Assembly (NCBI RefSeq): GCF_014229095.1
Contig: NZ_JAARZC010000002.1
Location: forward strand, 186,001-250,000
Direction: 5' to 3'
DNA: 64,000 nucleotides
DNA from: Listeria cossartiae subsp. cayugensis
GTDB taxonomy: Bacteria; Bacillota; Bacilli; Lactobacillales; Listeriaceae
Each line of letters starts with the position of its first letter. Position 1 is the first letter of the stretch. The notes beneath the pieces were generated by a model. The model searched no databases. It saw nothing but the letters and a program-made list of their open reading frames with translations, and was not told the DNA's origin. Position numbers and translations under genes: made by a program. This document shows, piece by piece, positions 25,981-28,788 of this stretch.

Positions 25981-26044
25981 AAAAAAGCAGGAATCTTGTA
26001 CGAAGCCAGTAAAAATGGCGCATACAAGATTCCTGCTTATTTTT
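25981..26044. terminator. Terminator of pta and of the converging oxidoreductase gene
   Basis: AAGCAGGAATCTTGTA pairs with ATACAAGATTCCTGCTT, with A and T tracts on both sides. It marks the left edge of the accessory cassette. Confidence 0.9.
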
Positions 26045-26654
26045 CTATTTTGCGACTAAATGAATCTAGTAGTTTTTTTCGATCATTAATACTCATCTTA
26101 TGGACACTTGAAAAGTTATACCATTTTAATTTGTGAAATCCCATTTTTCTAAAAGTTCCTCTGAACACAATTTTAGTAATAGGACTACCAAATATGCATT
26201 TATAAATCCAATGAGGTGTGGCCATTACCGTAATCATTTTCACTTTTTTTAAATTCGGTAAATTACTTTTGAATAGTTTGCTTTTCGGGGATGCTTCATA
26301 AATGATGCCTTTAGCAATCACTTTATCAAAAAAGCCTTTCATCATAGCGGGCATTGCTTCCCACCAAATGGGGAAAATAAAAAGAAGCTCCTCAGCAGTC
26401 ATTATTCGTTCTTGATAGTTTTTCACTAGTGGATTATCGACTTCTTTTTTTCGCCAAGCAATTAAATCTTCTTTATGCATAACAGGGTCAAATCCGTCTT
26501 TGTGAAGATCAATTATATCGACAGTGTAACCAGCTTGTTCGTAAGTCTCTTTAGCTGTTAATAACAAAGCGGCTGAAAAACTCCGGTTATGTGGTTCGTT
26601 AAAGCTAGCATCACCTGTGTAAGGATGGTCAAAAACTATACAAATCCGTTTCAT
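26037..26654 (-). CDS. Flavodoxin-fold NAD(P)H oxidoreductase (NQO1/KefF/MdaB-like)
   Basis: 205 residues. The N-terminal FMN-binding strand-loop MKRICIVFDHPYTGD, the FIFPIWWEAMPAMMKGFFDKVI block near residue 90 and a late aromatic segment fit the flavodoxin_2 family of quinone reductases. It would reduce quinones or related electrophiles with NAD(P)H. The start overlaps the stop of the upstream membrane protein gene (ATGA), so the two are co-translated. It lies in an accessory cassette between pta and pdxT, divergent from a TetR gene that may control it. Confidence 0.8.
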   Translation of the reverse strand: MKRICIVFDHPYTGDASFNEPHNRSFSAALLLTAKETYEQAGYTVDIIDLHKDGFDPVMHKEDLIAWRKKEVDNPLVKNYQERIMTAEELLFIFPIWWEAMPAMMKGFFDKVIAKGIIYEASPKSKLFKSNLPNLKKVKMITVMATPHWIYKCIFGSPITKIVFRGTFRKMGFHKLKWYNFSSVHKMSINDRKKLLDSFSRKIEK

Positions 26655-27301
26655 AAAATACCCCCATTCTTTACTAGTTTATTTTCTGCTGATTTTCGTT
26701 TTTTCAAGAAAGCGATATATATAATATCAAAAATACTACAAATAAAGCCGCATATAATGATATAGATATTGATTTCTAGCAAAACTCCCATTAATATAGT
26801 CGGTGCCAAAGTGCCAATCCATTTGGCAAAAGCCATTAGTAAGGTTTGACCATTTGTATTTTGGCGTTGGAATAACATTGCTACAAATAAAATAGACATG
26901 GCGACATTTTGCATAAAGGCTGAATATTGCGCAGCTGGAATGGATGCAAAACTAAAATAAAAAGCAAATTGAATGGCAAATCCTGTAACAAATACAAGGA
27001 TACTAAAAGGAATAAAATATTTTTTTGCGTTTTCAGGGAAATATTTTTTTCCATATTTAAAGTATGTGTACACAATAATTAAGTCAAAACATGCCCATAT
27101 TAGATTGACCAAACCTTGTACGCCTACGCTGTTCGAATTAATTACTAAATCATTTACCGAATAAATAACTTCCCAAGCAAAATTTAGACTTAGAGCAAAT
27201 AAGGGCATTGCATAAGTTTTATATTTTATTCCATTACGAATTAATTCTATATAGACAATAGTCCAAGCGATACCACTTAATAAGGTTAAAAATAATGTCA
27301 T
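26651..27301 (-). CDS. Small polytopic membrane protein, Pyr4/PaxB-like terpene cyclase signature
   Basis: 216 residues with about seven hydrophobic segments. An acidic residue in LNFAWEVIYS (near residue 43) and an Asp in ICSIFDIIYIAFL (near 195) resemble the paired Glu and Asp of the Pyr4/PaxB family of membrane terpene cyclases, which also have seven helices and similar length. This is pattern recognition, not a search result. The ATG at 27301 follows AAAGGAGG; an upstream in-frame start is unlikely. Coupled with the oxidoreductase gene. Other small seven-helix families remain possible. Confidence 0.5.
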   Translation of the reverse strand: MTLFLTLLSGIAWTIVYIELIRNGIKYKTYAMPLFALSLNFAWEVIYSVNDLVINSNSVGVQGLVNLIWACFDLIIVYTYFKYGKKYFPENAKKYFIPFSILVFVTGFAIQFAFYFSFASIPAAQYSAFMQNVAMSILFVAMLFQRQNTNGQTLLMAFAKWIGTLAPTILMGVLLEINIYIIICGFICSIFDIIYIAFLKKRKSAENKLVKNGGIL

Positions 27302-27328
27302 TATATATCCTCCTTTATTTTCATTAGG

Positions 27329-27405
27329 TGTTACATATGTTACAGTTAATAGTGTAGTACTTGTGATTTCATAATACAAGATACACTTAAAGCTGAATTG
27401 TTACA
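27329..27405. promoter_or_regulatory. Divergent regulatory region with inverted repeat and TGTTACA repeats
   Basis: AGTGTA-ACTTGT (27351-27364) is mirrored by ACAAG-TACACT (27376-27387). TGTTACA occurs at 27329, 27338 and 27399. A minus-strand promoter TTGTAT-17-TACACT overlaps the inverted repeat. It is the probable operator of the adjacent TetR-family regulator. Confidence 0.6.
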
Positions 27406-27423
27406 CTTTGAGGAGGAAGAGTC

Positions 27424-27960
27424 TTGGAAGAAAATAGCCAAAGAGTGCTAAGTAAAAAATGGATTATTGAAGCTTTATTAGATCTTTTAAAAACAAAACC
27501 ATATTCCGCAATTACAATCACTGAAATTACTAAAAGAGCTGGAGTTGCTCGCTTAACCTTCTATAGAAATTTTGAAAATAAAGATCAAATATTACTTGCT
27601 AGATCTAATTATCTTTTTGAAGAATATTTTAATGAATTACAAAAAGTAGAAGGAATAATTGATATAAACAATGCTTTGCTAGAGTGCTTTAACTACTGGA
27701 AACGTGATGCTCAAGTTATGGAAATTCTCATTAAGAACAATTTAATTCATTTATTGGATCAACCATTTTATTCTTTTTTAGAAAAAATAATGGAAGAAAT
27801 CCCCTCCCTTAATAGTTTGAATGAGACGCAGAAAACTTTTATACTAGGAGGTTTAACGCGGACAATGCTTCATTGGATTTCAACAAAAAGCACAGATTCA
27901 CCGGCTCAGGTGACTCAGTCCATTTTGAAGTTGGTTGATTTAGAGCATTTATCAGAGTAG
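27424..27960 (+). CDS. TetR-family transcriptional regulator
   Basis: 178 residues, starting with TTG after GAGGAGGAAGAG. The helix-turn-helix is clear: YSAITITEITKRAGVARLTFYRNFENKDQILL (about 27-58). The C-terminal part (LNETQKTFILGGLTRTMLHWI) resembles the TetR_C_8 type. It is divergent from the membrane protein-oxidoreductase pair and probably represses it, responding to an unknown small molecule. The local sequence is AT-rich compared with pta. Confidence 0.85.
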   Translation: MEENSQRVLSKKWIIEALLDLLKTKPYSAITITEITKRAGVARLTFYRNFENKDQILLARSNYLFEEYFNELQKVEGIIDINNALLECFNYWKRDAQVMEILIKNNLIHLLDQPFYSFLEKIMEEIPSLNSLNETQKTFILGGLTRTMLHWISTKSTDSPAQVTQSILKLVDLEHLSE

Positions 27961-28008
27961 CAGAAATTGGAAATGTTAAAAGCTTGTTTGACGAAAGGTG
28001 AGACGATA

Positions 28009-28174
28009 ATGAATTATATTAGATGGATCAGAGAAAAGGTAGTTAAATGAGAAGAGCTGGCGAAGATGTATCGAAGTATCTTCCAGCTTTAGAGAAATAC
28101 ATGTATGAATTTATATTTATGAGGGAATTCCGGAAAAAGATGCGAAATTGTATATAGAATCTATGGCAAAATAA
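28009..28174 (+). pseudogene. Decayed gene fragments downstream of the TetR gene
   Basis: An ATG at 28009 after AAAGGTGAG encodes MNYIRWIREKVVK and stops at 28050. The first eleven residues resemble the N-terminus of NUDIX hydrolases. A second piece from 28047 reads KYLPALEKYMYEF and, after a frame change, IYIYEGIPEKDAKLYIESMAK ending at 28174. This looks like a gene with an internal deletion and a frameshift. The 260-base gap holds nothing else besides the pdxT terminator. Confidence 0.5.
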
Positions 28175-28176
28175 TT

Positions 28177-28223
28177 AAAAAATACAGCGGAAATCATAGT
28201 TTAGATTTCCGCTGTATTTTTTT
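28177..28223. terminator. Terminator of pdxT, bidirectional
   Basis: AATACAGCGGAAATC pairs perfectly with GATTTCCGCTGTATT and is flanked by A and T tracts. Right edge of the accessory cassette. Confidence 0.93.
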
Positions 28224-28788
28224 ATACCATTTTTTCGAGGAAGTAACGCATCCAACGATTGTCATTAGTTAATTCAGGATGGAAGGCGGTTACGAGAATA
28301 TTCGCTTGTTGGGCAGCGACGATTCTCTCGTCAATTGTCGCTAATATGGTGACTTCATCGCTTGGTTCAATTAAGTAGGGAGCACGGATAAACACGGCTT
28401 CAAAGGGAGTTGCACCAAATGTTTCTACATTTAATTTGGCTTCAAAGCTTTCTTTCTGACGTCCAAAACCATTACGGATCGCGGTAGCGTCAATCAATCC
28501 TAGACTCTCTTCGCCACCTTCAATTTCTTTGGATAAAAGCACAAGCCCAGCACAAGTTCCAAAAATAGCTTTCCCTTCACTTGCAAATGCGCGGATAGGT
28601 TCCATTAAATCATAACGCTTCATAATTTTGCGCATCGTTGTGCTTTCACCACCGGGTAAAACAAGCCCGTCAAGCCCAGCTAAATCATTTGAACGCTTTA
28701 CTTTAAAAGCAAGAGCACCGGCTGATTCAATCATTTGGATATGTTCATCAACTGCACCTTGAAGTGCAAGTACACCAATTTTTTTCAT
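28222..28788 (-). CDS. pdxT: PdxT, glutaminase subunit of pyridoxal 5'-phosphate synthase
   Basis: 188 residues. It releases ammonia from glutamine and passes it to PdxS. The class I triad is visible: Cys79 in GTCAG, and His and Glu in FHPELT near residues 170-172. The LPGGESTT motif near residue 47 is typical. It lies one base after the pdxS stop, in a two-gene operon. Expression is expected to depend on the divergent PdxR. Confidence 0.96.
   Translation of the reverse strand: MKKIGVLALQGAVDEHIQMIESAGALAFKVKRSNDLAGLDGLVLPGGESTTMRKIMKRYDLMEPIRAFASEGKAIFGTCAGLVLLSKEIEGGEESLGLIDATAIRNGFGRQKESFEAKLNVETFGATPFEAVFIRAPYLIEPSDEVTILATIDERIVAAQQANILVTAFHPELTNDNRWMRYFLEKMV

Follow-up and report, generated by a model that had tools for sequence, protein, structure and literature searches.

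Organization of the pta-pdxT locus

We analysed a stretch of 64,000 nucleotides of Listeria cossartiae subsp. cayugensis (the window; positions 186,001 to 250,000 of contig NZ_JAARZC010000002.1, assembly GCF_014229095.1), in which a 2.1-kb cassette lies between pta and pdxT. The cassette comprises a gene for a membrane protein of the Pyr4-like transmembrane terpene cyclase family, a gene for a quinone-reductase-like flavoprotein and a divergent gene for a TetR-family regulator. The membrane protein has kept the catalytic set of residues of its family, it is repeatedly encoded beside a TetR gene, the palindromes found between the two genes match the recognition helix of the regulator in type, and the distribution of the gene is sporadic. 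We tentatively read the cassette as an inducible module that would modify an isoprenoid.

All the elements named in the original prediction, which was made from the sequence alone, are present (Table 1). The block is compact and is bounded by the two hairpins of pta and pdxT. The two minus-strand genes are coupled, with the stop codon of the membrane-protein gene overlapping the start codon of the reductase gene by four bases (ATGA), and the TetR gene diverges from them. All three reading frames are open. The stop codon of the reductase gene falls within the hairpin on the pta side, which is missing from the terminator scan list because of its 22-base loop. DNA alignment showed that the decayed gene pieces expected at the right edge are the remains of two genes: the 5' end of one, encoding a NUDIX hydrolase, has been joined to the 3' end of the other, encoding a 146-residue membrane protein. 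The inverted repeat, given as 38 bases long, is real, but it is imperfect, spans 35 bases and is probably not the operator.

Table 1. Features of the cassette and its borders (positions in the window; locus L006 is a Listeria relative).
Feature	Position	Strand	Evidence or remark
Hairpin between pta and the reductase gene, read as a terminator	25981..26042		Inverted repeat I2, 22-base loop
Reductase-like gene, Flavodoxin_2 NAD(P)H quinone oxidoreductase-like flavoprotein, 205 aa	26037..26654	-	PF02525 match
Pyr4-like transmembrane terpene-cyclase family gene, 216 aa	26651..27301	-	PF25129; conserved W13, Y17, N40, W43, E44, D73, D192 and Y195; seven-helix model
Putative TetR operator TGTTACATATGTTACA	27329..27344		Type 1 palindrome, 6 bases downstream of the predicted cyclase -10
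Predicted cyclase promoter	-10 27351-27356; -35 27374-27379	-	
Imperfect inverted repeat, GTGTA-N3-CTTGT ... ACAAG-N1-TACAC	27352..27386		35 bases
Predicted tetR promoter	-35 27359-27364; -10 27382-27387	+	
Putative half-operator TGTTACA	27399..27405	+	Just 5' of the tetR ribosome-binding site; invariant in four aligned Listeria sequences
TetR-family regulator gene, 178 aa, TTG start	27424..27960	+	TetR_N, E 5.7e-11; recognition helix RLTFYRNF; conserved divergent neighbour
Relic, 5' end of NUDIX hydrolase gene	28009..28039	+	DNA alignment with L006; not found by tblastn
Relic, 3' end of 146-residue membrane protein gene	about 28047..28174	+	tblastn, residues 105-146 in two frames; DNA alignment
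pdxT terminator	28174..28225	-	Inverted repeat I1 and terminator scan (both tools)

Family and catalytic residues of the membrane protein

Profile match and residue pattern place the 216-residue membrane protein clearly in the Pyr4-like family. It matches the Pfam family PF25129 (Pyr4-like transmembrane terpene cyclases) over residues 4-168 with an E-value of 4.1e-23 and a score of 82.7 bits (cut-off 27). No other Pfam family comes near, and NCBIfam gave no match for this protein. PF25129 also matches all 35 members of an alignment of relatives.

The residues important for cyclisation can be compared with those of DmtA1, the drimentine terpene cyclase of Streptomyces youssoufiensis, which has seven helices and a similar length. 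According to the DmtA1 study (PMC6173783), replacing W29, Y33, W59, E60 or D94 left little or no cyclisation, changes of N56, E133, D214 and Y217 lowered it, and the reaction starts with the protonation of a C-C double bond; E133 is described there as unique to DmtA1-3 and hence is not family-wide. When compared by published residue spacing, DmtA1 itself being absent from the alignment, W13, Y17, N40, W43 and E44 of the window protein, as well as D192 and Y195, are spaced exactly as in DmtA1 (W+4, +27, +30 and +31; D+3).

These W, Y, N, W, E, D and Y positions are kept in 92-93 of the 93 members of the subfamily of the window protein in an alignment of 107 sequences, and in all 14 Streptomyces members of the other subfamily. 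E44 (in LNFAWE) and D192 (in FDIIY), the two acidic residues singled out originally, are each present in 92/93 and 14/14 sequences of these groups. D73, which we equate with D94 of DmtA1, is kept in 93/93 subfamily members and in 10/14 of the other Streptomyces proteins; the equation is based on the Streptomyces proteins L110 and L112 (loci and genomes are cited by L and G numbers), in which the Glu lies 34 and 154 residues from two Asp residues, equal to DmtA1. Five enzyme fragments (L037, L038, L040, L076 and L079) were dropped from the residue count and the tree, and L008 and L021, both from a single L. marthii genome that contains runs of N, were left out of the residue, prenyl-neighbour and TetR counts. 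As E44 and D192 are conserved at positions matching mutated DmtA1 residues, they probably form the catalytic pair by homology. Pfam, residue conservation and the spacing of the mutated DmtA1 residues thus bear out the Pyr4/PaxB-like assignment first proposed. Neither outcome named beforehand as refuting it, a clear assignment to another family or acidic residues that vary among homologues, was observed.

Predicted fold

The AlphaFold2 model has seven helices (pLDDT 94.4), where about seven had been expected. It matches the KDEL receptor, cystinosin and SWEET structures, which belong to the PQ-loop superfamily, over nearly the whole length (VIA-align); the absence of other structures from the match lists carries no weight. 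The protein might then be a transporter or a receptor of this fold, moving or sensing a small molecule, which we consider very unlikely: the DmtA1 cyclisation residues are nearly invariant, the sequence family is that of terpene cyclases, and a fold does not show function. The likeness to these proteins consists of the seven-helix fold over most of the length; in contrast, the window protein has conserved cyclase residues and negligible sequence similarity to them, and its 216-residue sequence does not contain the PQ dipeptide. MtN3_slv was found in 2 of the 35 alignment members (best E 0.031) and PQ-loop in one of the 35 (E 3.6), values that unrelated families reach as well. Neither the membrane protein nor its profile matched any sequence of a solved structure, and the fold match would place an enzyme family for which a sequence search finds no solved structure. 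Judged by title, none of the papers listed in searches of the open-access literature links terpene cyclases to the KDEL receptor or to the PQ-loop fold, and a word search of the main text of the 2012 paper on the PQ-loop family (PMC3281891) found none of the words 'terpene', 'Pyr4', 'PaxB' and 'cyclase'.

Distribution and phylogeny

A protein search returned 739 relatives at E-values up to 1e-3 among 905 candidates. When 84,980 species genomes were scanned with two peptide patterns, 131 relatives were found, of which 80 were kept; they belong to Bacillota, Actinomycetota, Bacteroidota, Chlorobiota, Chloroflexota, Acidobacteriota, Spirochaetota, Pseudomonadota and archaea. Where sampled, the gene is rare: it is present in one of the 398 Bacillota genomes, that of the window itself, and in 43 of the 392 sampled Streptomyces genomes (42 over cut-off); the Streptomyces matches were covered as 30 short loci and 20 loci with wide flanks.

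In a tree built by a quick method, with weak support for 38 of its 104 inner branches and with some long end branches, 14 cluster-type Streptomyces proteins, together with the archaeal L088 beside them, are split from the rest with an SH-aLRT value of 99. Cluster-type proteins are those with a low score to the subfamily profile, and neighbouring genes were covered for 11 of their loci. The Listeria proteins are nested among those of Lachnospiraceae, Oscillospiraceae, Streptococcaceae and others, a placement that points to horizontal spread of the gene; the smallest strongly supported set that includes the window protein consists of three Listeria rows. Cyclase-like genes are also found in archaeal metagenome-assembled genomes (L018, L079 and L088; Nitrososphaerota, Candidatus Bathycorpusculum and Heimdallarchaeota), where binning errors are possible. 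In Chlorobiaceae (L051, L060, L063 and L068), the gene lies, without a TetR gene, in conserved synteny near GGR-like reductase and glycyl-tRNA-synthetase-like genes (names given from sequence), and these copies look as if they were vertically inherited.

TetR linkage and putative operator

In 36 of 101 loci, a divergent TetR gene is found no more than 450 bp upstream of the enzyme gene, and 39 of 101 have one within this distance in any orientation; farther away, 14 TetR matches occur in 1,268 kb. The TetR-adjacent label changes nine times on the tree, compared with 25.9 times in shuffles (0 of 500 as low), and TetR linkage is therefore found mainly in the part of the tree comprising Bacillota and Bifidobacterium. 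The distances between the TetR proteins correlate with those between the enzymes (rho 0.46, 0 of 2000 permutations as high) over 34 loci, three short rows of the 37 having been dropped. The loci without TetR are those of Chlorobiota, Acidobacteriota, most Bacteroidota, Streptomyces (20 loci) and some Bacillota (e.g. L019, L022, L044 and L081). As the TetR profile was built from the surveyed loci themselves, TetRs of other types may have escaped it: none was detected at the 20 Streptomyces loci, yet one Streptomyces plasmid match has an annotated TetR gene under it. A Muribaculaceae locus (L032:7001-8292) exhibits two tandem cyclase-like genes beside TetR.

Two types of palindrome are observed upstream of the enzyme gene: type 1, TGTAACA-NN-TGTTACA-like, in 8 of 37 intergenic regions, and type 2, TGACA-NN-TGTCA, in 13 of 37. 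Thus 21 of the 37 regions carry either type, compared with means of 0.00 (type 1) and 0.02 (type 2) in 500 dinucleotide shuffles. The comparison is not a blind one, since the sequences had been inspected before the patterns were defined, and the shuffles ignore the kinship of the regions. Type 1 occurs with the recognition helix RLT[FY]YR in 8/8 cases and type 2 with RQTFY[QN] in 13/13, so that the TetR control proposed initially is supported by palindromes common to several loci, at which binding is predicted and which vary in type with the helix.

In the window, TGTWACANNTGTWACA has its sole match in the 2.83 Mb genome at 27329-27344, and the regulon of this TetR is therefore probably the cassette alone. 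The putative operator is invariant in the four Listeria sequences (the window and L006, L007 and L021), among which the intergenic region as a whole has 89% mean column identity, and its position just below the predicted -10 of the enzyme operon would fit repression. The adjacent inverted repeat may correspond to two overlapping promoters that face each other. Most of both arms is invariant in the four Listeria sequences, with the cyclase -35 being off by one base in L006 and L007. A consensus promoter scan did not list these sites. Nor does the repeat occur among the 25 of 99 inverted pairs listed, an absence probably due to an indel between its arms. It was rejected as the operator, as its arms would read better as promoter elements and the palindrome shared across loci adjoins it. 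A second shared element, TGTATCTTGT or TGTACAAGTT, occurs near the tetR start, where the pattern set is found in 22 of 37 regions (shuffle mean 0.85, at most 4); it probably represents either the promoter of tetR or another site.

Neighbouring genes and possible substrates

The reductase of the cassette matches PF02525 (Flavodoxin_2) with an E-value of 5.2e-26 and 92 bits (cut-off 27). Its nearest solved sequence (E 3e-18) is named NADPH Quinone Oxidoreductase / putative oxidoreductase, and its NCBIfam matches are all below the cut-offs. On the basis of its domain, it is predicted to be quinone-reductase-like, of the NQO/MdaB type. Among the loci surveyed, a similar protein was matched only in Listeria, in Runella (L065), in Chlorobiales (L073) and, weakly, in Clostridia (L035). 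The reductase, originally proposed as the partner of the membrane enzyme, was accordingly rejected as part of the core module.

Other operon partners are found elsewhere: apart from the Flavodoxin_2 reductase of Listeria and Runella, an SDR protein is encoded in L009 and a FUSC_2 exporter in L033 and L029. The last of these, from Parasporobacterium paucivorans (L029:6344-10530), exhibits a divergent TetR gene and a row comprising the cyclase-like gene, a CrtC lipocalin gene, the FUSC_2 exporter gene and a Caroten_synth gene, the product of which we take to be CruF-like. In Lactobacillus sp. (L015:4214-7618), CrtC, an FAD/FMN_bind reductase and the cyclase-like gene are in a row, with a divergent TetR gene upstream, and in Bifidobacterium canis (L046), a CrtC-like gene, detected by phmmer only, lies two genes from the cyclase-like gene. 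CrtC and CruF hydrate isoprenoid double bonds. As CrtC is present in only 6 of the 398 Bacillota genomes, its recurrence beside the cyclase-like gene is unlikely to be due to chance. In Lachnospiraceae (L026, L028 and L030), a small ferredoxin-like gene, named from its sequence, overlaps the enzyme gene.

With regard to genes that could supply a prenyl substrate, no prenyltransferase or prenyl-synthase gene is present among the genes at pta-pdxT in the window, where epoxidases and P450s were not searched for. In the fetched flanks, which extend up to 7 kb with many contigs ending short of this, UbiA or polyprenyl-synthase matches were found at 2 of 81 subfamily loci (L078 and L086; E 1e-4). 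Streptomyces loci of the window subfamily had none (0/9), compared with 5 of 11 cluster-type Streptomyces loci (E up to 1e-3; 3/11 at 1e-4). Three Listeria proteins each served as UbiA and prenyl-synthase seeds, and the genes in all neighbour surveys were called as longest open reading frames, which is unreliable in GC-rich genomes. These counts speak against the enzyme being part of a split pathway for a secreted meroterpenoid or terpenoid, the other genes of which would lie elsewhere in the genome. Such a pathway would agree with the Parasporobacterium operon, in which the gene is shared with CrtC, FUSC_2 and Caroten_synth, and with the biosynthetic role of the bacterial Pyr4-like enzymes described as characterised in the accessible parts of the literature, yet we regard it as unlikely.

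The original prediction was that the enzyme could modify a prenyl quinone or another isoprenoid. Isoprenoid chemistry does fit the catalytic residues, whereas menaquinone is unlikely to be a substrate common to the family. In a sample of 27 selected carrier genomes, mostly TetR-linked, MenD is over cut-off in only one, that of the window itself; 22 others show weaker matches (best 159 bits, in Blautia, L017), and control genomes are over cut-off in 7 of 14 cases. We therefore rejected menaquinone as the common substrate of the family, for carriers using the MenD route and not the futalosine route, which is outside this test. More broadly, the enzyme could act on an endogenous isoprenoid, such as the menaquinone side chain, the undecaprenyl carrier or another polyprenol, with TetR sensing a stress-related lipid. 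Prenyl chains are present in the window strain, the genome of which has three UbiA-family genes, three polyprenyl-synthase genes and MenD, and the partner of the enzyme is a quinone-reductase-like protein. This is nevertheless rather unlikely in our view, because a gene found in only 4 of 25 Listeria genomes and in 1 of 398 sampled Bacillota is unlike a core function; the 26 of 27 carriers without MenD over cut-off count against menaquinone, not against undecaprenyl phosphate.

A possible module responding to exogenous isoprenoids

The reading that we prefer, although we hold it to be plausible rather than probable, is that TetR represses the cassette until a ligand induces it, and that the module then modifies an isoprenoid or prenylated compound, most likely an exogenous one, the toxicity of which it would most likely blunt. 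An exogenous compound is the most likely one because the gene is mostly separate from prenyl-substrate genes and is scattered in bacteria from gut, food and soil. An inducible response to an outside isoprenoid-like compound is further suggested by the switch and by the exporter, hydratase-like and reductase partners.

In this scheme, TetR would sit on the operator below the -10 of the cyclase operon and would be released when a lipophilic compound binds to it. E44, helped by N40, Y17 and D192/Y195, could then protonate a C=C double bond or an epoxide of a prenyl chain, as its residues suggest, leading to ring closure or hydration by a chemistry like that of Pyr4 and DmtA1. In Listeria, the quinone-reductase-like flavoprotein, probably translated from the same mRNA, might reduce the quinone or aromatic part of the compound. 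The compound itself could be a prenylated phenol, a quinone or a terpenoid of plant, fungal or bacterial origin, which the module would render less toxic. A wider proposal, which we regard as doubtful, is that the stand-alone, TetR-switched Pyr4 branch as a whole is an inducible defence of gut, food and soil bacteria, which would employ terpene-cyclase chemistry to cyclise or hydrate toxic prenylated compounds of plants, fungi or competitors rather than for natural-product synthesis, and that the enzyme is an offshoot of the SWEET/KDEL-receptor fold that turned into a catalyst.

Several observations weigh against an exogenous-isoprenoid module. The operon partners are not the same in every species and the majority of copies seem to stand alone, so that the substrate cannot be read from any of them. 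A TetR gene is missing within 450 bp at 62 of the 101 loci, and 16 of the 37 intergenic regions show neither full palindrome type. The TetRs of L033 and L038 have the type 1 helix without a full site, although a near variant is present in L038. With no more than two changes of palindrome type on the enzyme tree, there are two independent comparisons; both agree, which is consistent with protein-DNA recognition, but they are too few for the match between palindrome and helix to reach significance (sign test, p 0.5). E133 of DmtA1 has no counterpart, its place being taken by Q111 or F112 according to a spacing estimate; position 111 is Glu in 9 of the 93 subfamily members. The detoxifying role is argued mainly from absent biosynthetic neighbours, as judged with UbiA and prenyl-synthase seeds only, and we also count it against this reading that binding, ligand, substrate, reaction and detoxification are all inferred.

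Relation to known systems

The partners of DmtA1 are a cyclodipeptide synthase and a prenyltransferase encoded at its own locus (PMC6173783). Genes of this kind are missing beside that of the window protein, which is paired with TetR instead and has no counterpart of E133. It is like the fungal Pyr4 and the bacterial XiaH/TylF/ZigF-type enzymes in belonging to the Pyr4-like family, in which an acidic residue acts as Bronsted acid (PMC13307353). In their 2026 survey, Kakumu and Helfrich report 1107 bacterial Pyr4-like candidates, of which the 264 with terpenoid genes nearby were studied (PMC13307353). A stand-alone, TetR-linked copy would probably fail this neighbour filter, and the window module would accordingly belong among the candidates that were set aside.

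The protein is a member of a known family and the TetR-linked module a new form within it, with a defence role as our proposal. In the open-access literature, we found no experimental work on a TetR-linked Pyr4-like member; judged by title, none of the matches listed deals with Pyr4 together with Firmicutes or TetR, or with a terpene cyclase in Listeria monocytogenes. In quinone and electrophile response operons under TetR or MarR control, a small repressor is combined with an adjacent operon and a flavodoxin-fold reductase. The window cassette shares the repressor, the operon and the reductase with them; in contrast, its main product is a putative membrane isoprenoid enzyme.

Pyr4-like enzymes have so far been studied as makers of fungal and actinobacterial meroterpenoids. 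Here, a separate branch spans many phyla, mostly without prenyl-substrate genes nearby, and has its own TetR switch in much of the sampled Bacillota and in bifidobacteria. This switch offers an experimental handle, since the ligand that releases it would point to the substrate class. If the detoxification reading is true, the module would add a novel type to the chemical defences of bacteria from gut and food.

Variation of the island in Listeria

The survey of Listeria called for in the original prediction showed that the membrane gene is absent from most of the genus: it is present in 4 of 25 genomes, one copy being broken by a run of N. The pta-pdxT comparison covered 24 of the 25 genomes (the window, L006-L008 and L202-L221; G001 was left out). 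In 10 of the 24, pta and pdxT are directly adjacent, and in seven, pdxT is absent or only its end lies within the fetched stretch beside pta. L203 and L205 have only two membrane-protein genes in the gap (146 and 225 residues), to which L202 (G022) adds a NUDIX gene. L006, L007 and L. marthii L008 have the full island, which comprises the genes for the 146-residue protein, the 225-residue protein, NUDIX, TetR, the membrane enzyme and the reductase. The window has only TetR, the membrane enzyme, the reductase and the relic, in the place where intact NUDIX and 146-residue genes are found in L006 and L007. The 146- and 225-residue proteins gave no Pfam match over cut-off. Two NCBI clusters with 32 and 148 member sequences, 97 and 87% identical, are named Listeria monocytogenes.

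Among named relatives, L. marthii is the nearest in the flanking genes, with 95.2% over feo-pta and 93.3% over pdxST, where G022 is closer (94.4%). As G022 has the NUDIX part without TetR, cyclase and reductase, and no remnant of these three was seen in its gap, gain and clean loss are indistinguishable, and the insertion of the cassette as a single unit is therefore unsupported. A phage or plasmid origin is likewise unsupported: the phage collection gave no match, six IMG/VR stretches fit a pattern without any being a relative, and the six matching plasmid records are from Streptomyces (four) and Nostoc (two).

The right part of the island has been deleted and fused in the window, and most relatives have no cassette, as would be expected if it were a decaying, functionless remnant in this strain. 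We consider this extremely unlikely, since the three frames are open, the catalytic residues and the operator are preserved, and the intergenic region has a mean column identity of 89%, compared with 80 to 88% identity between the proteins and their L006 counterparts. The island is nested, its genes for the 146- and 225-residue membrane proteins and the NUDIX hydrolase being present stepwise in different species (L006:1746-3545, L007, L021, L202, L203 and L205).

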